A stretch of 64,000 nucleotides of DNA from an uncultured Gammaproteobacteria bacterium (GTDB lineage: Bacteria > Pseudomonadota > Gammaproteobacteria > Nitrosococcales > Methylophagaceae). A model generated the notes under the pieces. That model saw only the letters and a program-made list of their open reading frames with translations. It did not search any database and was not told the origin of the DNA. The stretch is taken from positions 1 through 64,000 of the forward strand of contig CAJQOM010000007.1 in assembly GCA_905479985.1 (NCBI GenBank), given 5' to 3'. Each line of letters opens with the position of its first letter. The first letter of the stretch is position 1. Of this stretch, positions 5,596 to 63,228 are shown in pieces. A program made the position numbers and the translations under genes.

Positions 5596-5601
5596 ACTGG
5601 C

Positions 5602-6057
5602 TTAATTGTCGCCCCGTTCAAGCTCCGTCGCTTGTGTAATCAAACCCACACTCGGCGCGCCCGCATCTTGTAGCAATGCCATTAAAGCAACAACACGGCC
5701 ATAATCAACAGCCGTATCGCCCTTGACCATCACGGGTGTATTCGGGCTGCGACCCAATACAGCACTCACTTTTGAACGCAAAGCATCTGACCCAATCGGG
5801 TCATCTTGTTTATCGCCAATCCCCACATAAAACAAACCTTGTGCATCAACGGACACAATCAATGGTTCGCTATTATCCTCACTGGGTTCAACGGGGTTCG
5901 CACTGGCCTGTGGCAAATCAACCTGTACACCTTGCGTTAACATCGGTGCCGTAATCATAAAAATAATCAGCAAAACCAACATCACATCAATATAAGGTAC
6001 AACATTGATCTCAGCCATCGGCTTCCGGCGTTGTCGTCTTTGATAATGAAGTGCCAT
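5602..6057 (-). CDS. tolR: Tol-Pal system protein TolR
   Basis: TolR, an ExbD/TolR family protein, forms the proton channel with TolQ. The 151-residue product has the conserved MAEINVVPYIDVMLVLL segment at about 14-30. The membrane aspartate in YIDVML (about residue 24) is the proton-carrying residue in the family. A periplasmic domain ends with a short amphipathic tail. The spacing is 15 bases to tolQ and 6 to tolA. Confidence 0.96.
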   Translation of the reverse strand: MALHYQRRQRRKPMAEINVVPYIDVMLVLLIIFMITAPMLTQGVQVDLPQASANPVEPSEDNSEPLIVSVDAQGLFYVGIGDKQDDPIGSDALRSKVSAVLGRSPNTPVMVKGDTAVDYGRVVALMALLQDAGAPSVGLITQATELERGDN

Positions 6058-6072
6058 GATTAATGATCCAAC

Positions 6073-6741
6073 TTAATCATGTTGACGCTGTAAAATAGAA
6101 GAAAACTCTTCTAAGAACGTGTCATATCGATTAATCAAACGTTCTACTTCGTGTGAGTAACGGTTATAAGCAATCACAGCTGGTATCGCGGCAAATAAAC
6201 CCATTGCTGTCGCAATCAGTGCTTCTGCAATCCCCGGTGCGACCATTCCTAATGTTGCTTGCTGCACATTACCCAACGCGCGAAAAGAATTCATAATCCC
6301 CCAGACCGTACCAAATAAGCCTATATATGGACTTGTTGATCCCGCGGTTGCTAAAAAGGGTAATGACATCTCTAATTGATCCACTTCTCTGGCCAAAGAG
6401 ATACGCATCACGCGTTGCGCCCCTTCCAGTACGATAGCGGAATCGGGTCCAGATTTTTTTAGCCGAACAAACTCTTTAAAACCCACCTCAAATATCCCTT
6501 CCATCCCACGACTCGCATGAGGGCGTGAAGAAATATCTTCATAGAGTTTATTCAGTTCATTTCCAGACCAAAACTTATCTTCAAAAGAATCGGCATCTTG
6601 TTTCGCTTGAACCAATTCATTTCGCTTTTTGAAAATCAATAGCCACGAATAAACCGAAATAGCGAGTAACGCTAACATCACCAATTTCACCACCAAACTG
6701 GCTTCGGAAATCAACGTTATCATTGAGAGATCAGCATTCAC
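6073..6741 (-). CDS. tolQ: Tol-Pal system protein TolQ
   Basis: TolQ is the MotA/TolQ/ExbB-type inner membrane channel subunit of the Tol motor. The 222-residue protein has a first membrane helix at about 14-36, a cytoplasmic loop with FEDKFWSG and GFKEFVRL, and two later helices. The signature GLFGTVWGIM...QATLGMVAPGIAEALIATAMG is complete. I take the GTG at 6741 as the start because GGAG lies about 9 bases upstream and the length then matches E. coli. The alternative is the ATG at 6723. With the GTG start it overlaps ybgC by 11 bases. Confidence 0.95.
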   Translation of the reverse strand: MNADLSMITLISEASLVVKLVMLALLAISVYSWLLIFKKRNELVQAKQDADSFEDKFWSGNELNKLYEDISSRPHASRGMEGIFEVGFKEFVRLKKSGPDSAIVLEGAQRVMRISLAREVDQLEMSLPFLATAGSTSPYIGLFGTVWGIMNSFRALGNVQQATLGMVAPGIAEALIATAMGLFAAIPAVIAYNRYSHEVERLINRYDTFLEEFSSILQRQHD

Positions 6742-7138
6742 CGTCTTGTAACTCCGTCATCATAAAAGCAGGAATCGGCATCGGCCGAAATCGAATTGCA
6801 TCCAAACAAGCCACTTTGACCTCAGCTTGGCACAACAGTTCATCATTACAAAAAACTTTCTGGTCAAACAGCAAACTGGCACCTTGTGCCGACACCAGAC
6901 TATTACGGACAATTAAAGCATCATTAAAGCGCGCTGGACGTTTAAATTGAATCTGCATTGAATGCACAGCAAAAATGCATTGGTGTTGGTCAATCAAGAC
7001 ATCTTGCTCAAAACCCAGGCTACGCAACCATTCAGTGCGAGCCCGCTCCATAAAATTCAAATATTGGGCGTGATAAACCACACCGCCTGAGTCAGTATCT
7101 TCATAATAAACTCGGACAGGCCAATCAAATTCAACCAT
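6731..7138 (-). CDS. ybgC: Acyl-CoA thioesterase YbgC
   Basis: YbgC is a hotdog-fold cytoplasmic acyl-CoA thioesterase encoded as the first gene of tol-pal clusters. The 135-residue product has the family motif [17 protein letters not shown] near the N-terminus, with the catalytic aspartate at D16. The start overlaps the ruvB stop by 8 bases and the end overlaps tolQ, so ruvB-ybgC-tolQ is translationally packed. The physiological substrate is unsettled in the family; phospholipid-related acyl thioesters have been proposed. Confidence 0.94.
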
Positions 7139-8153
7139 CGTGTGTTTTCGCTGAATCGGCTGACAATCCTAAATGCAACCAAGCACGCTTAGTCGCCACC
7201 CTGCCACGCGGTGTACGCATAATAAAACCTTCTTGAATCAAATAAGGTTCCAACACATCCTCGATCGTACCGCGTTCTTCGCCAATCGCAGCCGCCAAGT
7301 TATCAATCCCGACTGGGCCACCTTCAAATTTCTCAATAATGGCCTTCAGAAGCTTTCTATCCAACATATCAAAGCCATTATCATCAACATCTAATAAATC
7401 TAATGCCTGTCTTGCCACTTCAACGGTAATCTGACCATCAAACTTCACTTCAGCGTAGTCACGAACCCGACGTAATAAACGATTCGCAATGCGCGGGGTA
7501 CCGCGAGAACGTCGCGCTATTTCGACGGCGCCGCTGACATCCAATTCAACGCCAAAGATACGCGCACTCCGTTGTACAATCGTGCTCAAATCTTCCGGCG
7601 AATAAAATTCTAGGCGCTGCACGATGCCAAAACGATCTCGCAGCGGTGATGTCAATGATCCCGCGCGCGTCGTGGCACCGACTAACGTAAACGGCTCTAA
7701 CTCTAGCTTAATAGAGCGCGCAGCAGGCCCCTCACCAATCATAATATCTAACTGGTAATCTTCCATTGCGGGATACAACACTTCTTCAACAATCGGGCTT
7801 AAGCGGTGAATTTCGTCCACAAACAACACATCGTTTGGTTCTAGGTTAGTTAATAACGCAGCCAGGTCACCCGGCCGTTCCAAAACCGGGCCAGAGGTTT
7901 GCTTTACATTAACGCCCATTTCATTGGCAATAATATTAGCTAAAGTCGTTTTACCCAGACCGGGAGGGCCGAAAATTAAGGTGTGGTCTAATGCTTCGCC
8001 ACGTTGTCGAGCGGCAGAAACAAATAATTCCATTTGTTCACGCACAACGGGTTGGCCTATATAATCTGCAAGGCGAGCAGGTCGAATAGCTGTATCTTGA
8101 TCTTGATGCGCTTCATCAAGTTGAGCGACAGCAGAGATAAAGCGATCTTCCAT
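7131..8153 (-). CDS. ruvB: Holliday junction branch migration ATPase RuvB
   Basis: RuvB is the AAA+ hexameric motor that drives branch migration of Holliday junctions with RuvA. The 340-residue protein has Walker [10 protein letters not shown] (62-70), Walker B DEIH (113-116), a GATTRAG sensor region, and a C-terminal winged-helix DNA-binding domain ending with TPRGR. Its length is normal. It overlaps ybgC at the 3' end. The 111 bases separating it from ruvA are the widest gap in this run, so a separate promoter there is possible, but none was identified. Confidence 0.97.
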
Positions 8154-45405: not shown

Positions 45406-48400
45406 ATGGCTCAGATAACGAATGGTAATTACGACGCCCTCGCATGGGTTCAAAATGAGGTTCAGCAATCACTCGCTGACGCCTTACAAATACTCACGCG
45501 TTTTATTGATGCGCCACAAGATTCGGCAACCCTAGAGCCCTGCATTACACAACTACACCAAGTCACCGGCATTATGGAAATGCTCGACCTGCAAGGTGCT
45601 TTGTTACTCAGCCAAGAAATGCTGGCCTCTGCCACCAAAATTCGCAGCCAATCAGGCGACAACACTACCCGGATGCAAGATAGTCTGCTGAAAGGCTTGT
45701 TATTACTGCCTAATTACTTAAAACAAGTTGGGCCGAACATCAGCGATCATCCCCTTCGCCTGATCAGCACCATTAACGAATTACGCTTAAGCCGCGATGA
45801 CAAAATCATCACTGCTGATAGCCTATTCAAACCCAGCTTATCAGTTCCTTTGCCAAATGAAATCACCCCAAAACCGCATGACGCCACCGCAAAAAGTAAT
45901 CTTGCCATGGCTAAAATGGGGCATGCTTTTCAAGTTTCATTGGTCAGTTGGATCAAAAATAACGACAACGAAAGTCTTAACAAAATTGGTCAATTAATCC
46001 ATTATTTACGGATTAGCTGTACCCACGAACGCAGTATCATCCTTTGGTGGATTGCCGAAGGCTTTATCGAAGCACTTAATGACGGTGGGCTGCCTATTGA
46101 CACCAAAAGCAAGCTTAGCATCGGCAAACTAAATGATCCGATTAAGCTGCTCACCAAACATGACGAACAATATTTACTGTCCCTGTTCCCGACAGACATT
46201 GTGCACCAATTACTGTTGCTCATCGCACAGTCAACGAGTTCTGGCACCCACGTTAGCTTGATCAAAGCCGCCTTTAACCTAGACTTTTATGACCAAAATA
46301 TTCATCAAAAAATATACAGCTTCACCGATGGTGCGCTCACCGAAGCCCGTGCTGGTATCTTGGAGCAATTATTAGAAGTCAAAGAACAACTCAATCAATT
46401 CAACCGTGAAGATGCCGATGCGACAAATGCACTCGAGCAACTCACCACACAATTTTCAAGCTTAGCCAGCTCACTTGACCTCATCACAGAAGACACCGCT
46501 AGCCAATTACTACGCCAACATCAAGAAGCCTTATCCGCAAGCTTAAGTCAGGGCGAATTGCCGGCAGATAGCCAATTAATGGCACTGGCTGATGATCTAC
46601 TCCGTGTTGAAAACCAGTTACAACAAAGCAATCAAATTGCTAACCCACAAGACAAGCAAAACGACGATCTGCAAAGCGCTGTCATCGACGAATGTCTCAA
46701 TGAATTAGCGAATATTAAAGAAACGTTAATCCTTGTTGAAAATAAACGTGTCAACAATGACGACGTCATTCCAGATACTGCCGCGCAAATTGCCCTGATC
46801 GCCGGTAGTACATCAATGATAAGCCTTGATGACACCACGCAGTTACTAGAAGACACCGCAGCCAAAATGGTCGATCGCCATACCAACCAAAACGATTTCA
46901 CTGATAACGAATTGGGGTTATTGGCTGAGGTCATTGCGGCGACAGAATTATATTTGGAAGGGCTTAGTCAGCATGGACAACACCAAACACAGTTCATCAC
47001 TCAAGCAAAATATCAACTAGACCATTTTGAACAATTAGCCCGTGGGGAAACCATTACTGAGGATACTAATCTTGGTAATGCTGAACTACAGTCTGAACAA
47101 AGCCCACAAGCTGAAACCAGTGTTGATCGATATATACAACTACAGCAAATGGCTGCGCCTCACTTTGCCGAAGAAGAAATAAGCCTCGAGTTAGACCAAC
47201 CAGAGCCTATCCCAGTCGTTCAAACTGACACCAGTGTTGATAAATATATCCAACAACTTGAATCTGTACCGGTTGAAAAACAAACAACAAGTGTTGATCG
47301 GTATATTCAGCAACTTGAATCTGCACCGGTTGAAAAACAAGCAACAAGCGTCGATCGTTATATTCAACAACTTGAATCTACACCGGTTGAAAAGCAATCA
47401 ACAAGTGTTGATCGGTATATTCAACAACTTGAATCCGCACCCGTTGAAAAACAACCAACAAGTGTCGATCGTTATATTGAACAACTGAGCACGTCCGAAC
47501 TGATTATAGAATCCGAGATTATTGAGCCCGATAATCTTGAATTAGAGCCATTGTTCGACCTAAACATTAATGATCTTCAAACAGTCGAGCCACCTTCAGT
47601 AGAAACCGAACTACAATTTGCCGAAGGCATCGATCCCGACATTGCCGAAGTCTTTATCGAAGAAGCTGATGAAGTCATCGCAGAATTAGATACCTTAATT
47701 CCAAGCTGGCAAGCAACACAAAGCGCGGAAGACCTTGCCACTATTCGTCGCCATTACCATACCTTAAAAGGCAGCGGACGCATGGCGGGTGCCGAGGTTA
47801 TCGGTGATTTGGCTTGGTCAATCGAAGATTTACTCAATCTCACACTCGATAATCAAATTGAAACATCAGCGGCTGTCCAAGACATTGTTATAAAAAGTCA
47901 TCAACTGATCCCATCACTCATCACCCGTTTTACCCAAGGTGACTTATCAGGGGAGGAAGATGTCAATGCCATTAAAGCATCGATCACGGCGCTAATACAG
48001 CCGAATGTCGAATCAGACACAGAAAATACTGACGCAACAGACAGAGAATTACGCCAAATCTTCAGTGATGAAGCCTCTGACCATATCAGCGCCTTCAAAG
48101 ATCAAATCTCTAATACAGCTTGGCCATTCCCTATTAGCGAAGCTATCTTGCAAACGACGCACTCGCTCAAAGGCTCCGCTCGAGTGGCAAATGTCAATGC
48201 CGTTGCCGACGTAGCCGACGCCTTCGACAAGACATTACACCAGCTTTACCAACAAAATATCTCGTTAAATGAACTCCAACTCAACACGCTCAACAAAGGT
48301 GTTACCGGCCTAGAACACCTCATTGATGATGCCGTCATAAATCAAGAGAACCCGCAACAAGTCGATGATTTATTAGCCCTTATCAGCACACTAGAAACGG

Positions 48401-51201
48401 AACAATTAACCACCGACAATTCACCACAGCGGCTTAGCCCTGAAACGCTGTCTATCTTCCTCGATGAGACAGATGAATTACTCGAGCAATATCACTTCTT
48501 ACGCCAGCAATTACAGCAGCTACCAGAAGATGAAGACTACAAATCGGCTATTCAGCATACCTTGGCTAAACTAACCGAAAATGCCAACTACGCTGAAGTC
48601 ACAGAGTTAAGCGATACCTACCAATTATTAGCACGCTTAGCATCACAACCCGATATGTCGGATTCAGCCATTTCAGCGCTATTGGCTACTGGATCAACAC
48701 AAGTCAATGACATCATTAAAGGCTTAAAAGAAAACCAGAGCCCACCTGATACCGAAGATTATAATGCCCAAGTTGAACATTATTTCGATACGCTACACAC
48801 GCTGCGCTTCGAAACGCCTGAAACTGATGAACCACTAGTTCAAACAACCGATAGTGGGTTATTTAGTATTCCACACACCGATGACGATCTCCTTGAAGCC
48901 TTTACTGAAGAATGCGCCGAATTATTAGAATCTAGTGGAGAAGCGATTAAACGCTGGCAGAAAAAACCCGGCGACAATGAAGCTTCACTACAACTACAAC
49001 GTGATCTCCATACCTTAAAAGGCGGCTCTCGCTTAACAGCTATTACGCCAATTGCAGATCTAACCCATCACACTGAATCGCTTGCCATCATGGCCAGTGA
49101 CAATAAATGTGACACTGATGATGCCTTCTTTAACCTATTACAACGTTGCCAAGATCGCCTAGCAGACATGCAAGATCAGCTTAGCCAGCGAAGTAACATT
49201 ATGTCTGCCGACGATCTCATTACTGAGATAGATCAATTCAGTGGTCAATCAGAGTCCGATGTAAGCGATATTGACGTAACCCAACTCATTCCCACTGTCA
49301 GCTTTTCCGCTGATGCAGAACCAACGCCTTCACAAGCTAAACCTGCCTCAAGCAGTAATGAACAAGTCCGCGTTAAAGCCGAATTACTCGACTTTCTCAC
49401 CAACTTCTCTGGTGAAGTGAGCATCTCTCGTGATCGCGTTAGCCAACAAAATACCGCCATGCGCCAACAGCTCGGCGAAATGGAATCGACAGTCGAACGG
49501 TTACAAGAACAATTACGTAAGCTAGAAATGGAAACCGAAGCACAAATTCTATTCCGCTACGAAGATAACGCAAACCAGGGCCGCTCAGAGTTTGATCCAC
49601 TCGAACTTGATCGCTTTTCACAAATGCAACAACTGTCTCGCGGCTTAACTGAAAGTGTCACCGACTTACATGACATTACCCATTCTATTGAAGGGCTTGT
49701 CCGAGAGTCAGATACCATTTTAATCCAACAATCGCGTCTCAGCACCGACCTACAACAAGGTCTGATGAACACCCGTTTATTGCCTTTTAATGGGTTGATT
49801 CCCCGTTTCGAACGCATCGTTCGTCAAACCAATGAGGAAGTGGGTAAACAATCTGAACTCATCGTCTATGGTGCCGACCGAGAGCTAGATAGAACCATCC
49901 TAGATCATATCGTCGCGCCTATTGAACACATTCTTCGTAATGCAATTTCACACGGCATCGAAAGTAAAAAAGAACGTCAACAAGCAGGAAAACCTGACGT
50001 CGCAACACTGACATTAACCATCACCCGCGACGGCTCAGAAATACTGATTACCCTCTCCGATGACGGTCGCGGCATTGATATCGAAAAAATCCGTGAAAAA
50101 GCCCTAGCCAAAAACCTGATCAACCCAGACAAAATGCCAAGCGATGATGAACTTATCCAGCTCATTTTACATTCCGGCTTCAGTACCGCTGACGATGTGT
50201 CACAACTGGCTGGCCGCGGTGTGGGTATGGATGTTGTTAACAGTGAAATTAGAACCCTAAAAGGACGCCTATCAATCCAATCAGTGCCCGGTCAAGGCTC
50301 TAGTTTCAATATTCGCCTGCCTTTAACCTTGTCTGTCATGCAAGCACTCTTAATTGGTAGCGCAGATGATCAATACGCCGTGCCGCTCGCCTCAGTGAAT
50401 GCTGGCGAGCGTATTTCAGTGAAAGAAGTCAAAACATTACTGGCACAAGGTGATGATGCAAGGTACGAGTTCAACGGCACTGAATATAAGTTTATGGCAC
50501 TCGCAAGCTTACTCAACCAACCCTTTAGACTACAAGACGAACATGCCCCACAACTGCCACTATTGCTCTTTAATTCAGGCGAAGTACAGGTCGCCCTTGT
50601 TATCGACTCGATTAACAGCAGCCGTGAAATCGTCCTCAAATCTGTGGGCGAACAGCTAGACCATATCGCCGCCATTAATGGTGCAACGATTTTAGGCGAT
50701 GGCCAAGTTGTTTTTGTCCTCGATATTCCAACCTTAGTGAATACAGTAGACAAAACCATTGCAGCAGACAATTTGCTCAACAGTGCTATTTCGACATTAG
50801 AATCCATCCGAAACCGCCTGCCTGTTGCTATGGTTGTCGACGACTCCATCACTATGCGTAAAGCCTCCGGCAATCTATTAAAACGTCATGGCTTCGACGT
50901 CATCACCGCCCGCGATGGCATTGATGCAGTCACCTTGCTAAATGACAAAATACCCGATGTCATTCTGCTCGACGTTGAAATGCCACGAATGGACGGGTTT
51001 GAATTTGCAACATTAGTCAGAAATGATGAACAATTTAATCATATCCCCATCATCATGATCACATCACGTACCGGTGATAAACATCGCGGACGTGCCCGTA
51101 GCATTGGTGTTAATGCCTACCTTGGTAAACCGTACCAAGAAGGCGAATTAGTCGATACCTTACAAAATCTACTGGGTGCAAAATACCCGGACCATGATTA
51201 A
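45406..51201 (+). CDS. chpA: ChpA/PilL hybrid chemotaxis kinase with multiple Hpt domains
   Basis: This is the central histidine kinase of the twitching system. The 1931-residue protein has N-terminal helical degenerate Hpt-like regions (about 1-560), then a 19-residue tandem repeat (about 570-700). Clear Hpt domains follow with phospho-acceptor histidines H785 (HYHTLKGSGR), H919 (TTHSLKGSAR) and H1202 (DLHTLKGGSR), and a degenerate one between the last two. Next come the dimerisation region, the HATPase domain (EHILRNAISHGIES, DDGRGIDIEKI, GRGVGMDVV), a CheW-like domain and a C-terminal receiver with D1856 (LLDVEMPRMDG). It starts 69 bases after pilJ. Size and domain order fit ChpA, with fewer complete Hpt domains than Pseudomonas. 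Confidence 0.94.
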   Translation: MAQITNGNYDALAWVQNEVQQSLADALQILTRFIDAPQDSATLEPCITQLHQVTGIMEMLDLQGALLLSQEMLASATKIRSQSGDNTTRMQDSLLKGLLLLPNYLKQVGPNISDHPLRLISTINELRLSRDDKIITADSLFKPSLSVPLPNEITPKPHDATAKSNLAMAKMGHAFQVSLVSWIKNNDNESLNKIGQLIHYLRISCTHERSIILWWIAEGFIEALNDGGLPIDTKSKLSIGKLNDPIKLLTKHDEQYLLSLFPTDIVHQLLLLIAQSTSSGTHVSLIKAAFNLDFYDQNIHQKIYSFTDGALTEARAGILEQLLEVKEQLNQFNREDADATNALEQLTTQFSSLASSLDLITEDTASQLLRQHQEALSASLSQGELPADSQLMALADDLLRVENQLQQSNQIANPQDKQNDDLQSAVIDECLNELANIKETLILVENKRVNNDDVIPDTAAQIALIAGSTSMISLDDTTQLLEDTAAKMVDRHTNQNDFTDNELGLLAEVIAATELYLEGLSQHGQHQTQFITQAKYQLDHFEQLARGETITEDTNLGNAELQSEQSPQAETSVDRYIQLQQMAAPHFAEEEISLELDQPEPIPVVQTDTSVDKYIQQLESVPVEKQTTSVDRYIQQLESAPVEKQATSVDRYIQQLESTPVEKQSTSVDRYIQQLESAPVEKQPTSVDRYIEQLSTSELIIESEIIEPDNLELEPLFDLNINDLQTVEPPSVETELQFAEGIDPDIAEVFIEEADEVIAELDTLIPSWQATQSAEDLATIRRHYHTLKGSGRMAGAEVIGDLAWSIEDLLNLTLDNQIETSAAVQDIVIKSHQLIPSLITRFTQGDLSGEEDVNAIKASITALIQPNVESDTENTDATDRELRQIFSDEASDHISAFKDQISNTAWPFPISEAILQTTHSLKGSARVANVNAVADVADAFDKTLHQLYQQNISLNELQLNTLNKGVTGLEHLIDDAVINQENPQQVDDLLALISTLETEQLTTDNSPQRLSPETLSIFLDETDELLEQYHFLRQQLQQLPEDEDYKSAIQHTLAKLTENANYAEVTELSDTYQLLARLASQPDMSDSAISALLATGSTQVNDIIKGLKENQSPPDTEDYNAQVEHYFDTLHTLRFETPETDEPLVQTTDSGLFSIPHTDDDLLEAFTEECAELLESSGEAIKRWQKKPGDNEASLQLQRDLHTLKGGSRLTAITPIADLTHHTESLAIMASDNKCDTDDAFFNLLQRCQDRLADMQDQLSQRSNIMSADDLITEIDQFSGQSESDVSDIDVTQLIPTVSFSADAEPTPSQAKPASSSNEQVRVKAELLDFLTNFSGEVSISRDRVSQQNTAMRQQLGEMESTVERLQEQLRKLEMETEAQILFRYEDNANQGRSEFDPLELDRFSQMQQLSRGLTESVTDLHDITHSIEGLVRESDTILIQQSRLSTDLQQGLMNTRLLPFNGLIPRFERIVRQTNEEVGKQSELIVYGADRELDRTILDHIVAPIEHILRNAISHGIESKKERQQAGKPDVATLTLTITRDGSEILITLSDDGRGIDIEKIREKALAKNLINPDKMPSDDELIQLILHSGFSTADDVSQLAGRGVGMDVVNSEIRTLKGRLSIQSVPGQGSSFNIRLPLTLSVMQALLIGSADDQYAVPLASVNAGERISVKEVKTLLAQGDDARYEFNGTEYKFMALASLLNQPFRLQDEHAPQLPLLLFNSGEVQVALVIDSINSSREIVLKSVGEQLDHIAAINGATILGDGQVVFVLDIPTLVNTVDKTIAADNLLNSAISTLESIRNRLPVAMVVDDSITMRKASGNLLKRHGFDVITARDGIDAVTLLNDKIPDVILLDVEMPRMDGFEFATLVRNDEQFNHIPIIMITSRTGDKHRGRARSIGVNAYLGKPYQEGELVDTLQNLLGAKYPDHD
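47230..47499 (+). repeat. Tandem 57-bp repeat inside chpA
   Basis: Four 57-base units start at 47230, 47287, 47344 and 47401, followed by a partial fifth at 47458. Each encodes TSVDRYIQQLESAPVEKQ plus one variable residue. An isolated diverged copy starts at 47116. Silent differences between the units show they are not recent copies. The repeats form a Glu/Gln-rich linker between the N-terminal region and the first clear Hpt domain. Confidence 0.93.
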
Positions 51202-55001: not shown

Positions 55002-55985
55002 ATGAGTAGTGCAATTTCCGCTAACTGGACCAGCGTCAATGCTGCTTGCCAGCCGCTAATCGACCACCTTGTCGCTGATGCACAAGCCTTACAATTAGAC
55101 GTTAGTACTTTAAGTAATGGCACACGCATTATTGATGCCGGTATTAACTGTACCGGTGGATTGGAAGCCGGCCGTTTAATTGGCGAAATTTGTATGGGTG
55201 GGCTTGGAACGGCCACATTAGGTACCAATAGCGGCTTTGATAACTGGCCTTGGTCAGTCAATGTCCATGCCAAAACACCGGTGCTGAGTTGCCTTGGTAG
55301 CCAATACGCAGGCTGGAGCCTCTCACATAAAAGTGAAGACAATAAGTTCTTCGCTTTAGGATCTGGCCCAGGCCGAGCATTAGCCGACAAAGAAGAAGTT
55401 CTCAAAGAGTTCGGCTATAAAGATAGCGCTGAGAGCACGTGCATTGTCCTAGAAGTCGATAAATTCCCGCCAATAGAAGTCGCGGAAAAAGTCGCCAAAG
55501 ACTGCGGTATTAGCGCTGATAAACTGACGTTTATTTTGACACCGACATCCAGCTTAGCCGGGGTCATGCAAATCGCCATTCGCGTGTTAGAAGTCGCCAT
55601 GCACAAGGCCCACACACTCCATTTTCCAATGGATAAAATCATTGATGGCTTTGGCGTCACCCCGGTCGCACCGCCAGGCGGCGACTTTATGACAGGCATG
55701 GGCCGCACCAATGATGCGATCTTATATGGTGGCCTCGTTCACCTCTTTGTCCAATCTACTGATGACGAAGCCAAAGACTTAGCTGACAAAATGCCCAGTA
55801 ATACTTCTTCAGATTATGGTCGCCCTTTTGCTGAAACATTCAAATCCTATGAATATGATTTCTTCAAAATTGATCCTATGTTATTTAGTCCCGCCAAAGT
55901 CATTGTCACCAATACGAACACCGGTAGTAGCTTCACAGCAGGTGAGTTGAACCCAACCATGCTGGCAAGCTCTTTCGGTTTATAA
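55002..55985 (+). CDS. mch: Methenyl-H4MPT cyclohydrolase Mch
   Basis: Mch converts methenyl-tetrahydromethanopterin to the formyl form in formaldehyde oxidation. The 327-residue protein has the family start NAACQPLIDHL, GTRIIDAGINCTGGLEAGRL and LGSQYAGWSLSH. VTPVAPPGGDFMTGMGRTNDAILYGG, the signature near residue 220-245, is also complete. The length is usual for bacterial Mch. It begins the C1 cluster, 17 bases before the glutamate ligase gene, in the same order as the mch-orf5-orf7-fae group of Methylobacterium, though here orf7 comes before orf5. Confidence 0.96.
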   Translation: MSSAISANWTSVNAACQPLIDHLVADAQALQLDVSTLSNGTRIIDAGINCTGGLEAGRLIGEICMGGLGTATLGTNSGFDNWPWSVNVHAKTPVLSCLGSQYAGWSLSHKSEDNKFFALGSGPGRALADKEEVLKEFGYKDSAESTCIVLEVDKFPPIEVAEKVAKDCGISADKLTFILTPTSSLAGVMQIAIRVLEVAMHKAHTLHFPMDKIIDGFGVTPVAPPGGDFMTGMGRTNDAILYGGLVHLFVQSTDDEAKDLADKMPSNTSSDYGRPFAETFKSYEYDFFKIDPMLFSPAKVIVTNTNTGSSFTAGELNPTMLASSFGL

Positions 55986-56002: not shown

Positions 56003-56926
56003 ATGGCATCGCGACCTAATATCGTCATTTTTAATGACACCCATGGTTGGCATAGCCGACAGTTAGTCGATGCTCTAGCGCGTTATAACATCACAGCTAT
56101 ACTGGCCGATTTAGCCGATTGCACCATTGATCTTGATACTAAAAATGGCCTCGCCATTCCAGGGTTAAACAACAGCCTACCCGACGCAATTATCGTCCGA
56201 GGTATCGCACCGGGTACATTAGAACAAATCACTCTTAGAATGGATATTCTCCACACCTTAGCGGAATTAAATGTGCCTGTTTTTAATACCGCCAAAGCCA
56301 TCGAACATACTGTCGACAAAGCCCGCACATCACTGCGCCTCCATCTTGCTGGCATTAACACGCCTAAAACATGGGCCTGTGAAAGTATTAATAAAGCCCA
56401 TGACATTGCCGCACAACAGTTTAAGCAAGGTCATACCTTAGTTTTAAAACCTCTGTTTGGCTGCCAAGGCAAAGGCATTGAAAAAATCACCTCGCTGGCC
56501 GAGCTTAAACAACAAGCCCCCATCGGTGATGCTTTCTATTTACAACAATACATAACACCGCTTACACCAAACCAATGGCAAGATTGGCGGATATTGGTCA
56601 TTGATGGCAAAGTCATCGCATCAATGTCACGCCACTCAAAACACTGGATCACCAATTTTGCCCAAGGCGCCGATTGCCTCGCCGCCGCCATTAATGATGA
56701 CATGGCAGCCTTAGCCATTAACGCCACAAAAGCCGTAAACGCGGCCTATGCTGGTGTCGATATCATTCAAACACAGAATGGTGACTACACCGTCTTAGAG
56801 GTCAATAGCGTGCCGGCATGGAAAGGCCTGCACCAAGCAACAAGGATTGATATCGCCGATCAATTGGCCCAAGCCATGGCCAGACGCATCACGCCATCAG
56901 ATATCACAGAACATGCTCAATACTAA
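56003..56926 (+). CDS. RimK-like ATP-grasp glutamate ligase (methanopterin-linked, Orf7/MptN type)
   Basis: The 307-residue protein has the ATP-grasp fold: LVLKPLFGCQGKGIEKI (ATP-binding, about 150-167), FYLQQYITP, DWRILVIDGKVIASMSR and VLEVNSVPAWKGLHQA at the end with metal-binding Glu and Asn. RimK-type ligases add glutamate; archaeal MptN adds it to H4MPT, and the methylotroph homologue Orf7 is needed for the pathway. The substrate here is inferred from position between mch and fae. The start is 17 bases after mch. It overlaps the following gene by 14 bases. Confidence 0.87.
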   Translation: MASRPNIVIFNDTHGWHSRQLVDALARYNITAILADLADCTIDLDTKNGLAIPGLNNSLPDAIIVRGIAPGTLEQITLRMDILHTLAELNVPVFNTAKAIEHTVDKARTSLRLHLAGINTPKTWACESINKAHDIAAQQFKQGHTLVLKPLFGCQGKGIEKITSLAELKQQAPIGDAFYLQQYITPLTPNQWQDWRILVIDGKVIASMSRHSKHWITNFAQGADCLAAAINDDMAALAINATKAVNAAYAGVDIIQTQNGDYTVLEVNSVPAWKGLHQATRIDIADQLAQAMARRITPSDITEHAQY

Positions 56927-57761
56927 GCAAATAGAGAATGCCGTCACCTGGGCCTGCATACAAGAAGTTTCTGCTCCCAAACCTGGCAACGTGAATGGTT
57001 TTAGTGATGGCCATAATATGTCGGTACAAAATTTTATCGACAGCGCCCATGCCATCGCACCTATTTTGTCTCAACAAAATCTAACCGTCGGCGAAATGAT
57101 TTTACACGCGGTTAAAGCAACGCGAACCGTTGTCGATTGTAATACCAACCTCGGCATTATTTTACTGTTTGCACCTTTATGCAAAGCCGTCGCCGATTGT
57201 AATCATTTTGATCAATTACCCTCGGCATTAAATCGCACCCTCAGCGCACTGACTATCAAAGATGCGGAATTGGCCTATCAAGCCATTCAAATTGCAGAAC
57301 CCGGCGGTATGGGAGAAAGCCCTGAACAAGACATTTATTCTCACCCGACAGTCACGCTAAAACAGGCCATGGAACTGGCTAAAAACAGAGATTCAATCGC
57401 CGCACAATATGCCAATAATTACCATGATATTTTTGAGCTAGGTCTAACAAATTTGACATTGTCAATTAATTGTGGGGAAAGTGTTGAATGGGCTACTGCT
57501 TTCGCGTATCTTAAGCTCCTATCAGCAACACCAGATAGTTTGATTCGTCGTAAACAAGGTCTGGCATGTGCAACTAAAGTGATGACTGAGTCAAAGAATA
57601 TTATCGAAAAGATGAATAAGAACAGTAATCTGAGTCAATTTGAGACCGACATCACTCTATGGGATAAAGAATTAAAGCAGAATGCAATCAACCCTGGTAC
57701 AACTGCAGATATGGCCGCAGCGAGCTTGCTAATTTACGCATTTTCACAGGTGCTTTCTTAA
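56913..57761 (+). CDS. CitG-like triphosphoribosyl-dephospho-CoA synthase family protein (methylotroph Orf5)
   Basis: Starting at the ATG at 56913 the product has 282 residues. It has EVSAPKPGNVNGFSDGHNM near the start, VVDCNTNLGIILLFAPLCKAV (about 75-95) and AEPGGMGESPEQDI. These are the motifs of the CitG/MdcB family that joins a ribosyl group to dephospho-CoA. Methylotroph genes of this kind (Orf5) sit by mch and are needed for the H4MPT pathway, but their reaction is not established as far as I know. A longer frame to 56847 is possible but would overlap the previous gene by 80 bases. The 148-base gap to fae separates it from the next transcript. Confidence 0.83.
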   Translation: MLNTKQIENAVTWACIQEVSAPKPGNVNGFSDGHNMSVQNFIDSAHAIAPILSQQNLTVGEMILHAVKATRTVVDCNTNLGIILLFAPLCKAVADCNHFDQLPSALNRTLSALTIKDAELAYQAIQIAEPGGMGESPEQDIYSHPTVTLKQAMELAKNRDSIAAQYANNYHDIFELGLTNLTLSINCGESVEWATAFAYLKLLSATPDSLIRRKQGLACATKVMTESKNIIEKMNKNSNLSQFETDITLWDKELKQNAINPGTTADMAAASLLIYAFSQVLS

Positions 57762-57909: not shown

Positions 57910-58428
57910 ATGCCAGTTATCGATCGTGTACTTGTAGGGGAATCTCTTGTCATTGAAGATGGAGATCTAGACAACGTTGCTCATATTGACTTACTTATGG
58001 GCCCACGTGGTTCAGCAGCAGAAGATGCTTTCTGCCGCACTATGACAGACCAAAAAGCAGGTGTTAACGGCTTACTAGCTGTAGTCGCACCTAACCTAAT
58101 GGTTAAACCTGCCACTGTCATGTTCAACAAAGTAACCATCAAAAACATGAAACAAGCAGTTCAAATGTTCGGCCCAGCGCAACGCGGTGTTGCGATGGCG
58201 GTTGCTGAATGTGTTGAAGACGGCACAATTCCAATGGCTGAAGCTGATGATTGCTTTATCTGTGTTGGTGTATTCATTTCTCCAACGGCAGATAACGATC
58301 AAAAAATTCAAGACTGGAACTACCGCGCAACGAAAGAATCAATCAAACGTGCAGTAGCACGTGAGCCAAAAGCGGCTGACGTTGTTGCACAATACAAAGC
58401 GTCAGAACATCCTTTCGCAGCAAGTTAA
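57910..58428 (+). CDS. fae: Formaldehyde-activating enzyme Fae
   Basis: Fae speeds the joining of formaldehyde to H4MPT, giving methylene-H4MPT. It is one of the most abundant proteins of methylotrophs. The 172-residue product has [23 protein letters not shown] with the conserved His at residue 25, [21 protein letters not shown] and [19 protein letters not shown]. The length is normal (about 170). AGGAC lies before the ATG. It stands in its own unit, between a 148-base gap and a strong hairpin. Confidence 0.97.
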
Positions 58429-58443
58429 GTAACACCCTTATTC

Positions 58444-58476
58444 AATCACCCTGCCTTATCGCAAGGCGGGGTGATT
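58444..58476. terminator. Strong hairpin between fae and the HisA-like gene
   Basis: AATCACCCTGCCTT pairs with AAGGCGGGGTGATT over 14 pairs (one U-G) with a 5-base loop. It comes 15 bases after the fae stop and overlaps the HisA-like stop codon. The T tract on the plus side is weak (TGTTTT). It may stabilise and end the abundant fae mRNA. Confidence 0.8.
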
Positions 58477-59158
58477 AATACTGTTTTAACATCTCTCGCG
58501 TAAACTTACCTTGATGTAAGGCACTCGCTATCAACACTTGCTGAACGCCCGCTTGTCCCAGCAACACCAGATCATCATTATCTCGCACACCGCCAGCCGC
58601 AATCACTTGAACCAATGGTTTCCTCGATTGAATCTCTGAAATTAAAGCAAAATCAGGTCCTAAATCAATACCAACTCGATCTAAGTTCATCACAATAACC
58701 CGATCCGGCCACCGCTCGACCTGCTGTAAAATCGCCTTATCCCCTAAGAACTGACTCTGCTTGAAATCCAAAGACAACACACAGGAATCAATATCTGATA
58801 GCAGTGGTAACGCTTGTAAATTTTCGCTCCCCAACACCATCACTAAGCGGTCTGAAGATGGAAACCGGGCCCAATCGCTCTGAACGCAAATACCAGTATC
58901 AAGCCAAAAAACAGTATCTGGAAACTGGGCAAGACATGCTTTATACAATGTCATATCAATTTTTTTGCCTGATATCACGTCCAAATCAGCAATATAGATC
59001 GTTTTGAAAGGAAAAAAGGCCAAAATATCAGCCACAACCGTTAGCAAATCCGTCGCCGCCGTTAGCACCGAATCAATAGGCTGATAAAACGCGCGACGGC
59101 CCGCTTTCGCGTGCACAACAATTCCCCCCATCAAATCAATGACCGGTATAATCTCCAC
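58475..59158 (-). CDS. HisA/HisF-like TIM-barrel protein of the C1 cluster
   Basis: The 227-residue product starts with MEIIPVIDLMGG, then IYIADLDVISGKK, and ends with QVIAAGGVRDNDDLVLLGQAGVQQVLIASALH, the half-barrel pattern of HisA (phosphoribosylformimino isomerase) with conserved phosphate-site GG. It lacks a histidine operon context. It sits within the H4MPT/methylofuran genes, convergent to fae, and related proteins of unknown role occur in methanogens and methylotrophs. I think it a cofactor-pathway protein, not HisA proper. It is not like archaeal MfnB in sequence. Its start is only 22 bases from mfnD on the other strand. Confidence 0.75.
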   Translation of the reverse strand: MEIIPVIDLMGGIVVHAKAGRRAFYQPIDSVLTAATDLLTVVADILAFFPFKTIYIADLDVISGKKIDMTLYKACLAQFPDTVFWLDTGICVQSDWARFPSSDRLVMVLGSENLQALPLLSDIDSCVLSLDFKQSQFLGDKAILQQVERWPDRVIVMNLDRVGIDLGPDFALISEIQSRKPLVQVIAAGGVRDNDDLVLLGQAGVQQVLIASALHQGKFTREMLKQY

Positions 59159-59180
59159 TCAACCTCCTCGACTCAACTTG

Positions 59181-60206
59181 ATGAAACTATTTGTTTACGA
59201 ACATATCACAAGCGGCGCATTAGCAGAGCAGAACCTCCCAACTAGCCTCGTGAATGAAGGCAATCAAATGCTGCTCGCAACACTGCAAGATTGCCATGAA
59301 ACTCAACACTGCACACTGATAACACTACGTGATAATCGGCTTGATGAACTCAGCCTATTCCAACAAAACACACAACATGATTGCCATCAAATAACGACAA
59401 TAGCTGACTACGATCAGGCTTGGGCACACTGCCTGACTCAATGTGACGCCGTCCTGATTATCGCACCCGAAACTGACAGTATATTAGCGTCATTACAACA
59501 GCACGTGTTAGACGCCGGGAAGATCATGCTTGGCAGTCATCCCACTGCAATACAATTAACCAGCGACAAACAACATTGTTATCAACACCTTTCACAAAAA
59601 GGCATACTAACGATACCAACGCAGCTCGCTTCTGGCCACTTAGCCTCAGATCTCTCGAGCCAAAATGGTTATATTCTCAAACCCATTGACGGCGCAGGCT
59701 GTGTAGAAACCTATTTTTTCAAAACGGCCTCCGAATTACAAAGCCACCTCGCCACATTAACGCTGCCAGAGCTCAATCAACAAGTAGTACAGCCTTATTG
59801 TGAAGGAACAGCTCTGAGTCTCTGTTTATTGTCCTCACATAATACGATTGAAGTCCTTTCCATCAATCAACAACATCTCATCCAGTCGCAAGGCCAGCTG
59901 AGCTTGTCTGCCTGCACAATTAATAGCAAAAATAAAACGCTGCCGAGTCTAATCCAAGCAAACCAAATAGCCCAACAAGTAAAGGCCGCTTTTCCCGGTT
60001 TATTTGGCTTTATTGGCATTGATCTCATCCATAATGACAATGGCTTATATATCGTCGATATCAATCCACGGTTAACCACAAGTTATATCGCTCTCCGTAC
60101 CGCTTTAAACCTTAACCCTATGCAGCGTTTATTTGACATAATAGAGCACAAAAAAACAGCCTTATCACCAATAACCCAACGGAAAACCATCAAACTCACG
60201 CTATGA
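59181..60206 (+). CDS. mfnD: ATP-grasp ligase, tyramine-glutamate ligase (MfnD) homologue
   Basis: MfnD joins glutamate to tyramine in methanofuran synthesis. The 341-residue protein starts MKLFVYEHITSGALA. It has the ATP-grasp parts GYILKPIDGAGCVETYFF (about 163-180), VVQPYCEGTALSLCLL, and FGFIGIDLIHNDNGLYIVDINPRLTTSY near the end. The ATG at 59181 is chosen because an earlier one at 59139 would overlap the HisA-like gene. It begins a run of genes with ATGA-type overlaps (mfnD-mfnF). In bacteria the product is methylofuran; the assignment is by homology pattern and cluster. Confidence 0.82.
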   Translation: MKLFVYEHITSGALAEQNLPTSLVNEGNQMLLATLQDCHETQHCTLITLRDNRLDELSLFQQNTQHDCHQITTIADYDQAWAHCLTQCDAVLIIAPETDSILASLQQHVLDAGKIMLGSHPTAIQLTSDKQHCYQHLSQKGILTIPTQLASGHLASDLSSQNGYILKPIDGAGCVETYFFKTASELQSHLATLTLPELNQQVVQPYCEGTALSLCLLSSHNTIEVLSINQQHLIQSQGQLSLSACTINSKNKTLPSLIQANQIAQQVKAAFPGLFGFIGIDLIHNDNGLYIVDINPRLTTSYIALRTALNLNPMQRLFDIIEHKKTALSPITQRKTIKLTL

Positions 60207-61243
60207 CACAACCTATTATCACAGGCTGGGACATTGGCGGTGCTCACCTCAAAGTGGCCCAGTGCACACAACAAGGCGAGCTACGCCAAGTTGTCGAAAT
60301 CCCCTGCCCGCTTTGGCAAGGCATCGAACAGTTGCAAAAGGCCGTTAAAACAGCCCAAGTAAAACTCCTCCAACCTACCCAGTTCAACGTCATCACAATG
60401 ACCGGAGAGCTCGTCGACATTTTCCCTGACCGGCAATCAGGCGTCACCGAAATTTTAGATTGCATCCACCTCTTTTTATCTGAAGAGTGCTGTCATATTT
60501 ATGCAGGTGATCTAGGATGGCTAACGCCTCGCCAAGCTAAAAATCAATGGCAGCAAGTCGCATCGCGTAATTGGCAAGCCAGTGTAACGTTCGCTGCTGG
60601 GCAGGTGGAGCAAGGGGTTTTCATTGATGTCGGCAGTACCACCAGCGATATCATTGCCATCGACAATCACCAAGCCCAACCAAAAGCCTTTAACGACTTC
60701 GAACGTCAAGCCATCAGCGAGCTACATTATGCTGGCGCTATCAGAACACCGCTTATCGCAATTGCTCATACCGTCCCTTTCGACAATAAAACCATTCGGC
60801 TTGCCGCAGAACTCTTCGCCACCAGCGGCGATTGTTGGGTCATACTTGATCAACTTGACCCCACTACAATTCAAGACAACACCGCCGATAATCAATCATG
60901 GCAAAAACCCGACTGCATACGCCGTCTTGCCCGTTTATTAGGGACTGACGCCCACACGTTTCCTGAACAGCAATGGCATCAGCTAGCACAGTGGCTTGCC
61001 GAACAGCAAATAATGCAACTACAGCAAGCCTGCCAAACCGTCTCAGCAAACCACCCCGCCATCCCAAAATCTGCACCTATTATCGGCGCAGGCATTGGCC
61101 GTTTTATTGCTCAAGAGTGTGCAAAACGACTTGGTAAAGACTATATTGATTTCAGTCGCCTAACAGAGCCAAGCTCATCCCAAGCTGCCGATCATGCACC
61201 TGCTGCTGCAATTGCCCTTCTAGCCAGCCAGCAGTTATCGTAA
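60203..61243 (+). CDS. mfnF: MfnF-like H4MPT-linked hydantoinase/oxoprolinase family protein
   Basis: In methanogens MfnF condenses the aminomethylfuran phosphate with gamma-glutamyltyramine to form the methanofuran core. The 346-residue protein has the actin-like ATPase pattern of the hydantoinase/oxoprolinase family: TGWDIGGAHLKVAQC at the start, GVFIDVGSTTSDIIAID (about 134-150) and a C-terminal GAGIGRFIAQECAKRLG. It matches TIGR03123-type proteins, always near methanopterin genes. It overlaps mfnD by 4 bases and ends 9 bases before pabB. Confidence 0.83.
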   Translation: MTQPIITGWDIGGAHLKVAQCTQQGELRQVVEIPCPLWQGIEQLQKAVKTAQVKLLQPTQFNVITMTGELVDIFPDRQSGVTEILDCIHLFLSEECCHIYAGDLGWLTPRQAKNQWQQVASRNWQASVTFAAGQVEQGVFIDVGSTTSDIIAIDNHQAQPKAFNDFERQAISELHYAGAIRTPLIAIAHTVPFDNKTIRLAAELFATSGDCWVILDQLDPTTIQDNTADNQSWQKPDCIRRLARLLGTDAHTFPEQQWHQLAQWLAEQQIMQLQQACQTVSANHPAIPKSAPIIGAGIGRFIAQECAKRLGKDYIDFSRLTEPSSSQAADHAPAAAIALLASQQLS

Positions 61244-61252
61244 AATACCCAC

Positions 61253-62641
61253 ATGTCAAAAAATCATCCCCTCCTTTGTGATCCCTTACCTTATCAAGCT
61301 GATTCCAGCTATTACTTTGAACGGATTCGCCACTTACCTTGGCCAGTCTTTTTCGACAGCACACGTAATACCACACAGGATAACCGCTACGACATTATTG
61401 CTGCTGCGCCTTTTAAGACACTCACAACCACTGGGTCGCAAACTAAAATAGCAACACAGACGACCACCGACACCATCGATGGCGATCCGTTTCGAATTTT
61501 ACAACAACAGTTAGAACAGTACCCTCGTCAAACAGCCACTAGCCTGCCTTTTTGTGGCGGTGCCATTGGCCTATTCAACTATGACCTCGGCAGACAAATA
61601 GAGCAGCTACCCAATATTGCCATCGATAATGAAGCCTCACCGGAGTTGCTCGTCGGCCTATATGATTGGGCCATCATCACCGACCATCATCTAAAGCAAT
61701 GCTTTTTAGCCAGTTTCAAGCTCGACACCGCAACAGAACAACAATGGGATAAATTGCTCGCATTACTTAACAGCGAGCAGACTACAATCCCACAAACCAT
61801 GACCGTCTCAGGCAAGTTAACAAGCCAACTTGAAACAGAACAATACAAAACAGCCTTCAACAAAATAAAACATTACATCCGTGAAGGAGATTGCTATCAA
61901 GTCAACTTAGCCAAACGATTTGAAATCACAGCCAAAGGCGACCCTTGGCACGCATACACATTATTACGCCAACAAAATGCGGCGCCCTTTTCTAGCTTTT
62001 TCAGCACCCCCCACCTCAGCATCATGAGCTCATCGCCAGAACGCTTATTAAAGCTGAATCAAGGTCATGTCGAAACCAAGCCCATTAAGGGCACCAGACC
62101 AAGAGATATAGATAACCCAGAACGAGACATCGCTTTGGCAAGTGAACTACAAAACAGCATCAAAGACCGAGCTGAAAACCTGATGATCGTCGACTTACTT
62201 CGAAATGATCTCGGTAAAGTCTGTCAGCCCGGCTCAATTGCTGTCCCAAAACCCTTTGCACTGGAATCTTTCGCTACCGTCCACCACCTCGTTAGTACGA
62301 TTACAGGAAAACTGGCAGACGATGAAAGCGCTGTCTCATTACTACGCGCTTGTTTTCCTGGCGGCTCAATAACGGGCGCGCCTAAACTGCGCGCAATGGA
62401 AATCATTGAAGAGCTTGAACCCGATAGACGCGGCGCTTATTGTGGCAGCATGGCTTATATCGGTTTTGACGGTAATATGGATAGTAATATTCTGATTCGC
62501 ACCCTTGTCTACAATAATAACCGCCTACGGTTTTGGGCTGGCGGCGGCATTGTCGCAGATTCTGATGTCGAACAAGAATATCAAGAAGTTCACGATAAAG
62601 CGGCAGCGATACTGAACGTCATCGAACAACTACGCACATGA
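61253..62641 (+). CDS. pabB: Aminodeoxychorismate synthase component I PabB
   Basis: PabB makes 4-amino-4-deoxychorismate, the precursor of p-aminobenzoate. The 462-residue product has the chorismate-binding domain with IREGDCYQVNLAKRFEI, SSSPERLLKLNQGHVETKPIKGTRPRD, DLLRNDLGKVC, FPGGSITGAPKLRAMEIIEELE and RTLVYNNNRLRFWAGGGIVADSD. The Lys in PIKGTRPR is that of PabB/TrpE enzymes. Its place among the methylofuran and H4MPT genes is sensible because H4MPT contains a p-aminobenzoate-derived aryl group. pabA is not seen. It overlaps mfnE by 4 bases. Confidence 0.95.
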   Translation: MSKNHPLLCDPLPYQADSSYYFERIRHLPWPVFFDSTRNTTQDNRYDIIAAAPFKTLTTTGSQTKIATQTTTDTIDGDPFRILQQQLEQYPRQTATSLPFCGGAIGLFNYDLGRQIEQLPNIAIDNEASPELLVGLYDWAIITDHHLKQCFLASFKLDTATEQQWDKLLALLNSEQTTIPQTMTVSGKLTSQLETEQYKTAFNKIKHYIREGDCYQVNLAKRFEITAKGDPWHAYTLLRQQNAAPFSSFFSTPHLSIMSSSPERLLKLNQGHVETKPIKGTRPRDIDNPERDIALASELQNSIKDRAENLMIVDLLRNDLGKVCQPGSIAVPKPFALESFATVHHLVSTITGKLADDESAVSLLRACFPGGSITGAPKLRAMEIIEELEPDRRGAYCGSMAYIGFDGNMDSNILIRTLVYNNNRLRFWAGGGIVADSDVEQEYQEVHDKAAAILNVIEQLRT

Positions 62642-63228
62642 TCATCGTTAAGGTTGGCGGAAGTCTGTTTGGCAGTCCTTTATTACAACATTGGTTAGAT
62701 ACCTTAAGCCAACTATCCCAACATGAAGCCATTATTATCGTACCCGGCGGTGGCCCTTTTGCCGATCAAGTACGTATGGCACAACAGCAACATCAATTTG
62801 ACGACCAACATGCTCACCATATGGCCTTACTTGCCATGTCACAATTTGGCTTAATGCTACTGGGCCTCAACCAACAAGCAAAACCATTCTATTATCCGGT
62901 AGAACAGTCAAAAATCACCTTACCTAACTTATCTGTTTGGTTACCTGACAAGCGGCTCTTAACAGATCCGCAACTCGCTCAAAACTGGGATACCACATCT
63001 GATAGCCTTGCATTATGGCTAGCCCAACAGCTCAATCCTAATAAGCTCTCACTGCTAAAACATCAATCTCAACCACAATCTTCAATTCATCAGCTGATAA
63101 GCCAGGGTCTGCTAGATAAAGCCTTCTCAACTCAATATGCCCAAGGCGCAGTAGTAATAGAGGTCTTTGATGTTAATCAAAACGCCGGGTTTTGCTTGAC
63201 CCAACCTAAACATCCTTTGATGCCATGA
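62638..63228 (+). CDS. mfnE: Amino acid kinase family protein, MfnE-like
   Basis: MfnE phosphorylates the aminomethylfuran phosphate in methanofuran synthesis. The 196-residue protein is a small amino-acid-kinase fold: IIVKVGGSLFGSPLL at the start, IIIVPGGGPFADQVR (about 32-46), WDTTSDSLALWLAQQLN, and no second domain. It is shorter than aspartokinase and fits the MfnE group. It starts 4 bases inside the pabB end and overlaps mfnA by 4, so pabB-mfnE-mfnA are closely coupled. Confidence 0.82.
   Translation: MIIVKVGGSLFGSPLLQHWLDTLSQLSQHEAIIIVPGGGPFADQVRMAQQQHQFDDQHAHHMALLAMSQFGLMLLGLNQQAKPFYYPVEQSKITLPNLSVWLPDKRLLTDPQLAQNWDTTSDSLALWLAQQLNPNKLSLLKHQSQPQSSIHQLISQGLLDKAFSTQYAQGAVVIEVFDVNQNAGFCLTQPKHPLMP

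Follow-up and report, generated by a model that had tools for sequence, protein, structure and literature searches.

What does Orf17, a protein with the barrel fold of the histidine-biosynthesis enzyme HisA, do in the synthesis of the one-carbon (C1) carrier methanofuran, and in which organisms does it do so? The question is raised by a 64,000-nucleotide stretch (hereafter the window) from an uncultured gammaproteobacterium of the family Methylophagaceae (assembly GCA_905479985.1, contig CAJQOM010000007.1, positions 1 to 64,000), in which a gene for such a protein lies within a cluster of C1 genes:

58475..59158, minus strand: orf17, predicted HisA-fold protein of methylofuran/methanofuran synthesis, 227 amino acids, GTG start

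In methanogenesis, methanofuran is the C1 carrier that acts first; in most methylotrophs, formyl groups are carried by its bacterial form. According to Hemmann and others (PMC8141765), the deletion of orf17 in M. extorquens PA1 could be obtained only in a ΔmxaF background; methylofuran and its MYFR-Glun intermediates were then not detected, methenyl-dH4MPT was present, and plasmid-borne orf17 restored methylofuran. The same text finds no evident use for an isomerase or a cyclase, calls the role of Orf17 unclear and leaves it out of the pathway, and published accounts treat the methanofuran pathway as solved with MfnA-F. That the gene exists, is required for methylofuran and resembles HisA has been in the literature since 2021, and a reading of the window from its letters alone (hereafter the sequence-only reading), which proposed the protein as a possible missing step, agrees with the published genetics without being a discovery (PMC8141765). 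Among open-licence papers, we found neither an assigned reaction for Orf17 nor a report of orf17-mfnB linkage in archaea.

What is new here is the extension of Orf17 to the archaeal methanofuran pathway and its placing beside MfnB: the bacterial gap, a required orf17 with no assigned reaction, is extended to archaea by profiles and gene order. Orf17 very probably belongs to the methanofuran pathway in both domains, and probably acts in its furan half, upstream of MfnF. Our overall reading, to which we give a probability of about 0.45, is that Orf17 would be an acid-base isomerase or dehydratase acting on a phosphorylated furan precursor at or next to the MfnB step, because it is co-inherited with MfnB, is often encoded next to it, and its loss removes the later intermediates that were looked for.

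Co-inheritance and linkage of Orf17 and MfnB

Orf17 tracks MfnB near-perfectly in both bacteria and archaea, and tracks the methanopterin marker MptG loosely. Given as genomes with both proteins/Orf17 only/MfnB only/neither, the counts for 250 genomes from a single archaeal phylum are 36/1/4/209 (phi 0.92); for 45 archaeal genomes bearing mch, they are 31/2/1/11 (phi 0.84; Orf17 in 33, MfnB in 32), and for 184 genomes from the class of the window, 22/0/3/159 (phi 0.93; Orf17 in 22, MfnB in 25). The corresponding P values ignore shared ancestry. For Orf17 and MptG in the 250 archaeal genomes, the same counts are 28/9/56/157 (phi 0.37), with MptG over its curated cut-off in 84 genomes and weak or split MptG genes perhaps undercounted at that cut-off.

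The mch-bearing archaeal set was reached through Mch (best 80 loci kept, 45 of these searched) and shares three genomes (G206, G208, and G225) with the set of 250. Its 33 Orf17 positives score at least 185 bits with a profile built partly from these same sequences and partly from bacterial ones, a partly circular comparison; its 12 negatives reach at most 97.8 bits with the 54-row profile, which is the range of HisA. In the set of 250, the scores of the 54-row profile fall from 180.8 to 123.4 bits with nothing in between, 37 genomes lying above this gap, and MfnB was counted where the match was full or long and scored at least 149 bits (40 genomes). The two archaeal genomes with Orf17 in which MfnB was not found by these searches, G198 and G225, have MfnF. 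The counts include two partial genes at contig ends: a truncated orf17 (109 bits) in G329, kept as MfnB only, and an orf17-like gene beside mfnF in G221, of which just the opening 30 codons are present, kept as neither. The 25 MfnB-bearing genomes of the class carry 20 family labels, 18 of them with Orf17. Nineteen of the 22 Orf17 genomes of the class were recognized through the family profile TIGR00734 (at least 78.7 bits), two by a later search and one through the 54-row profile; G016 (71.4 bits), which is placed with HisA in the tree, was left out.

Gene order also brings the two genes together. Within 1 kb of each other, orf17 and mfnB are found in 14 of 31 and 13 of 34 archaeal genomes having both (27/65), and all 27 pairs are divergent; within 5 kb, they are found in 17 of 31 and 27 of 34. 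This sample comprises 31 genomes of the mch-bearing set and 34 of the second set, the three shared genomes being left out of the latter, and gaps were taken between profile matches. Moreover, orf17 is divergent from mfnD-mfnF-mfnE, as in the window, in the archaeal regions L161, L166, L170, and L176, and a divergent orf17/mfnD-like pair is present in 14 of 20 other bacterial regions. Genes in these regions were called crudely, as longest open frames; orf17 is present yet uncalled in bacterial L190, L194, and L195 and in archaeal L179, several archaeal regions have no methanofuran gene called near orf17, and the neighbor clusters 10, 11, and 14 were named MptG-, MtdB-, and Fhc-like by eye.

Several side observations concern the same genes. 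Apparent mfnB remnants lie at G274:C66:11244-11779 and G387:C1:344286-344758, in genomes in which neither Orf17 nor MfnF was found, which gives the impression of a pathway disappearing as a whole. The archaeal genome G454 has two Orf17 matches (235.6 and 207.3 bits). MfnF matches score 133-166 bits in four bacterial genomes and 223-305 bits in eight archaeal ones, and none of these 12 matches, from 14 genomes searched, passes the NCBIfam MfnF cut-off (520). The bacterial mfnB of L237 (positions 5290-7252, genome G114) and that of L235 have as neighbors a gene resembling that of dihydropteroate synthase (TIGR00284, 196.2 bits, short of the cut-off of 256.65) and a gene whose 190-residue product matches nothing in NCBIfam at E up to 0.001.

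Orf17 among the HisA and HisF barrels

The HisA barrel pattern noticed in the sequence-only reading is borne out by two full-length family matches, both far beyond chance: residues 2-220 match PF00977 (His_biosynth; E 5.6e-19, 68.9 bits, cut-off 23.6), and residues 1-218 match TIGR00734 (hisAF_rel; E 7.1e-30, 104.5 bits, curated cut-off 179.85), the best NCBIfam match. The plus strand of 58475-59158, in its translated frame, is full of stops. Together with TIGR00734, Orf17 of M. extorquens (Mext_1835) and its archaeal homologue MJ_0703 are taken as the closest known system. The curated cut-off is passed in 11 of the 45 archaeal genomes and in none of the 184 genomes of the class, where the window protein and all other matches lie below it.

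Orf17 is set apart from the HisA and HisF of its own genome (2.2 Mb, 46 contigs, completeness 99.85), the genes of which are adjacent on another contig (G000:C19). This HisA scores 261.7 bits with TIGR00007 against a cut-off of 228.95, whereas Orf17, at 22% identity to it, scores 45.2 bits; with the HisF model TIGR00735, Orf17 scores 17.3 bits against a cut-off of 294.55. In the tree, 62 Orf17 rows (the window gene being L003) split from 8 HisA and 5 HisF rows with a support of 100/99, and every one of 200 bootstrap trees has this split. Because HisA and HisF are represented by just the few sequences present on loci retrieved beforehand, the tree demonstrates that Orf17 is separate but gives no date for the divergence. 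Orf17 is best described as a third branch of the HisA/HisF barrels, apparently devoted to the synthesis of methanofuran or methylofuran in bacteria and archaea. The sequence-only reading had likewise kept the protein apart from histidine synthesis, a view that would have been undermined by complementation of hisA together with a genome having no other hisA; the phylogeny it had proposed as a check and the HisA gene on G000:C19 both sustain it.

The sequence-only reading also judged the protein unlike MfnB, and at the family level this holds: Orf17 has no match to PF04476, the MfnB family, at E up to 1, and the best BLASTP piece between the two proteins is weak (25% over 76 positions) and out of register. 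Like Orf17, MfnB is a TIM-barrel protein that serves methanofuran synthesis (PMC11365854); the two are co-inherited and often divergent neighbors in archaea, but the window's genome encodes MfnB separately (G000:C32:50544-51188, 224.3 bits). An Orf17 standing in for an absent MfnB was considered and is ruled out, the genome having both.

A search of PDB sequences with Orf17 (E up to 0.1) returned HisA, PriA, and HisF chains only. The AlphaFold model (mean pLDDT 68.3, pTM 0.73), weak because its input had three rows with only two relatives supplied, has a HisA/HisF-type barrel fold; its best structural matches are HisA (Z 17.9), PriA (17.1), and HisF (17.0), scores that cannot tell the HisA fold from that of HisF. 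On strand 8, the motif A-S/T-x-x-H-x-G resembles HisF.

In an alignment of 54 rows (33 archaeal, 20 bacterial, and the window), 12 positions of Orf17 are invariant and 9 more are conserved in at least 90% of the rows. D8 (54/54) and D131 (53/54) align with D14 and D136 of HisA, on strands 1 and 5. In HisA, this aspartate pair provides the base and the acid of catalysis. The C-terminal phosphate loops are kept (G189 and G190 in 54/54, alanine or glycine at 211 in 47/54, serine or threonine at 212 in 52/54), and the N-terminal phosphate site keeps G89 (53/54) and a threonine or serine at 111 (54/54). In that N-terminal site, the GGGIR motif of HisA is replaced by D-x-G, the first glycine becoming D87 (53/54), and E112 (54/54) stands next to residue 111. 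R22, Y25, Y55, A57, D58, and S129 are invariant and H215 is found in 53/54; R22, Y25, E112, and H215 are additions with respect to HisA. This pattern suggests an enzyme that transfers protons in the manner of HisA but whose second site is altered; that site might accommodate a phosphate, an amine or a metal.

Candidate reactions and genomes without Orf17

MfnB condenses two molecules of glyceraldehyde-3-phosphate via phosphate elimination, isomerization, aldol addition, and cyclization (PMC11365854). Orf17 would bind a phosphorylated, sugar-like six-carbon precursor through its retained C-terminal phosphate loops; D8 as base and D131 as acid would move protons as in HisA; and the enzyme would thereby isomerize or dehydrate the MfnB condensation product on its way to the furan 4-HFC-P or the amine F1-P. 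We infer the substrate of Orf17, its proton-transfer chemistry and its assignment to the MfnB step in preference to other steps of the core pathway. That Orf17 acts at this specific step, on the MfnB condensation product, is put forward tentatively, at somewhat less than even odds. Still more tentative is a general scheme of furan formation by two barrels, in which MfnB would condense the trioses and Orf17, an offshoot of HisA, would finish the isomerization, dehydration or ring closure as an ancient seventh enzyme of the pathway in both domains.

Several points weigh against this placing. By itself, MfnB turns over 0.5 to 8.5 times per minute in vitro (PMC11365854), and the data for the maripaludis MfnB (PMC11365854, Table 1) make a second enzyme chemically unnecessary in that case. 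On the side of the residues, the third aspartate of HisA, in its RDG motif, is replaced by valine in Orf17 (V162 in 51/54 rows), the two gained acids D87 and E112 mean that a one-phosphate substrate is not proven by the alignment, and the model falls below pLDDT 50 at the loop holding R22 and Y25 (17-35) and at 212-216. The presence of MfnB in all 22 Orf17 genomes of the class could be somewhat too clean, because the 54-row profile was applied to the MfnB genomes only and the 159 genomes lacking MfnB were searched with the less sensitive TIGR00734. As to gene order, a position of orf17 beside mfnD-mfnF-mfnE is no pointer to MfnB in particular.

A further objection comes from genomes that keep MfnB and MfnF with no Orf17 found. 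In the bacterial family f26 (G026 and G156), MfnB and MfnF are kept and Orf17 was not detected. A single contig of G026 (C189, region L231) carries myfA-like, mch, myfB, orf7, fae, mfnD, mfnF, pabB, and mfnE genes, fae and mfnD are separated by only 81 bases at the place expected for orf17, and no Orf17 was found elsewhere in this 93% complete assembly; the step carried out by Orf17 can therefore be dispensed with or replaced. Three further genomes (G246, G460, and G189) have MfnB and MfnF with no Orf17 detected in assemblies that are possibly incomplete, and in G114 and G407 the contig ends at the expected place of orf17. In the MfnB proteins of seven genomes without a complete Orf17, 24 of 29 columns (those 95% conserved in 35 others) are kept, and the five deviating columns suggest no replacement for Orf17. 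The natural loss in f26 could show what replaces Orf17. The question of the reaction of Orf17 becomes a short biochemical test with MfnB, for which the natural-loss genomes provide the counter-test.

The rival that survives best, although unlikely, places Orf17 at the amination, where it would make or help to make F1-P from 4-HFC-P in place of a bacterial MfnC, perhaps through a proton shift in an imine of the furfural and an amino acid. HisA-type acid-base pairs act on imine and enamine intermediates, a chemistry that would suit such a role, and the conserved acids D87 and E112, near the second site, could bind an amine. In M. extorquens, no MfnC had been pinned down among five candidate homologues, and a block at the amination would fit the missing MYFR-Glun intermediates (PMC8141765). 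However, archaea reported to have a working MfnC transaminase carry Orf17 all the same (PMC8141765; PMC11365854), and no transaminase or glutaminase is found among the nameable neighbor clusters, most of the smaller clusters being unnamed.

Slightly less likely again is a non-catalytic or supporting function, such as acting as scaffold or chaperone for the methanofuran enzymes, or repairing or detoxifying a by-product of MfnB. A dispensable helper would agree with f26, where the cluster of G026 is otherwise intact, with the activity of MfnB by itself in vitro (PMC11365854), and with the small number of deviating MfnB columns (5 of 29 in the seven genomes). Conversely, the 12 invariant and 9 nearly invariant positions of Orf17, which include both catalytic aspartates of HisA, point to catalysis.

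A role in the synthesis of tetrahydromethanopterin, for instance the opening of the ribofuranose of beta-RFA-P, is very improbable. The reaction would resemble that of HisA, 28 of the 250 archaeal genomes have both Orf17 and MptG, which is above chance, and a methanopterin role has been suggested for MJ_0703, PMC8141765 citing White 2011. Yet the Δorf17 mutant of M. extorquens keeps methenyl-dH4MPT (PMC8141765), 56 of the 250 genomes have MptG without Orf17, and nine have Orf17 with no MptG over the cut-off. The published mutant and the loose MptG profile led us to reject Orf17 as a ribose-opening methanopterin isomerase, and for MJ_0703 the profiles and gene order make the methanopterin reading unlikely and indicate the furan half. 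The sequence-only reading had left the choice between a ribosyl and a furan phosphate; the furan side is upheld by the deletion mutant and the profiles, and the ribosyl side falls with methanopterin. Finally, it is hardly credible that Orf17 should be just another HisA (ProFAR isomerase), or else a HisF: this reading has in its favor the common fold and Pfam family and HisA as best-scoring solved fold, and against it the adjacent HisA and HisF of the same genome, the missed TIGR00007 and TIGR00735 cut-offs, the separate clade (100/99) and the replacement of the third aspartate and of GGGIR.

The C1 cluster of the window

The neighbors of orf17 in the window are the following (scores in bits):

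55002..55985, plus strand: mch, methenyl-H4MPT cyclohydrolase (TIGR03120, 401.8)
56003..56926, plus strand: myfB (orf5), MptN/RimK-like glutamate ligase (NF040720, 218.7, cut-off 350; TIGR00768, 160.2, over its cut-off)
56916..57761, plus strand: orf7, CitG-like protein (PF01874, 229.5)
57910..58428, plus strand: fae, formaldehyde-activating enzyme, convergent with orf17 (TIGR03126, 214.5)
59159..59180, no strand: divergent gap of 22 bases between orf17 and the mfnD-like gene, assuming that the latter starts at 59181
59181..60206, plus strand: mfnD-like/myfA-like ATP-grasp ligase (NF040722, MfnD_Meth, 96.3, below the cut-off of 400; PF02655, 103.2)
60203..61243, plus strand: mfnF (orf9) (TIGR03123, 313.1, over its cut-off; NF040623, 151.7, below the cut-off of 520)
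61253..62641, plus strand: pabB, aminodeoxychorismate synthase component I (TIGR00553, 373.5, over its cut-off)
62638..63228, plus strand: mfnE (orf21) (NF040622, 72.6, below the cut-off of 300)

The surroundings are thus as the sequence-only reading had described them, with no histidine context and with fae facing orf17 at a distance of 46 bases. The 22-base divergent spacing is correct if the mfnD-like gene starts with the ATG at 59181 (MKLFVYEH...); the first ATG of its longest open reading frame, at 59139, would overlap orf17. MfnD_Meth is the best NCBIfam match of this divergent ATP-grasp frame.

The order mch-orf5-orf7-fae-orf17 agrees with the published Methylosinus island, mch-orf5-orf7-fae-fae-orf17, which differs in having two copies of fae (PMC3615186), and in M. 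extorquens fae adjoins orf17 (PMC6595629). Among the regions compared, the cluster to which orf7 (56916-57761) belongs is found in 16 bacterial regions, including the window, and in no archaeal region. Farther upstream, 45406-51201 holds an open reading frame of 1931 amino acids with a response-regulator-like stretch at its end, which by eye, from its translation, looks like a signaling protein of the CheA/Hpt type.
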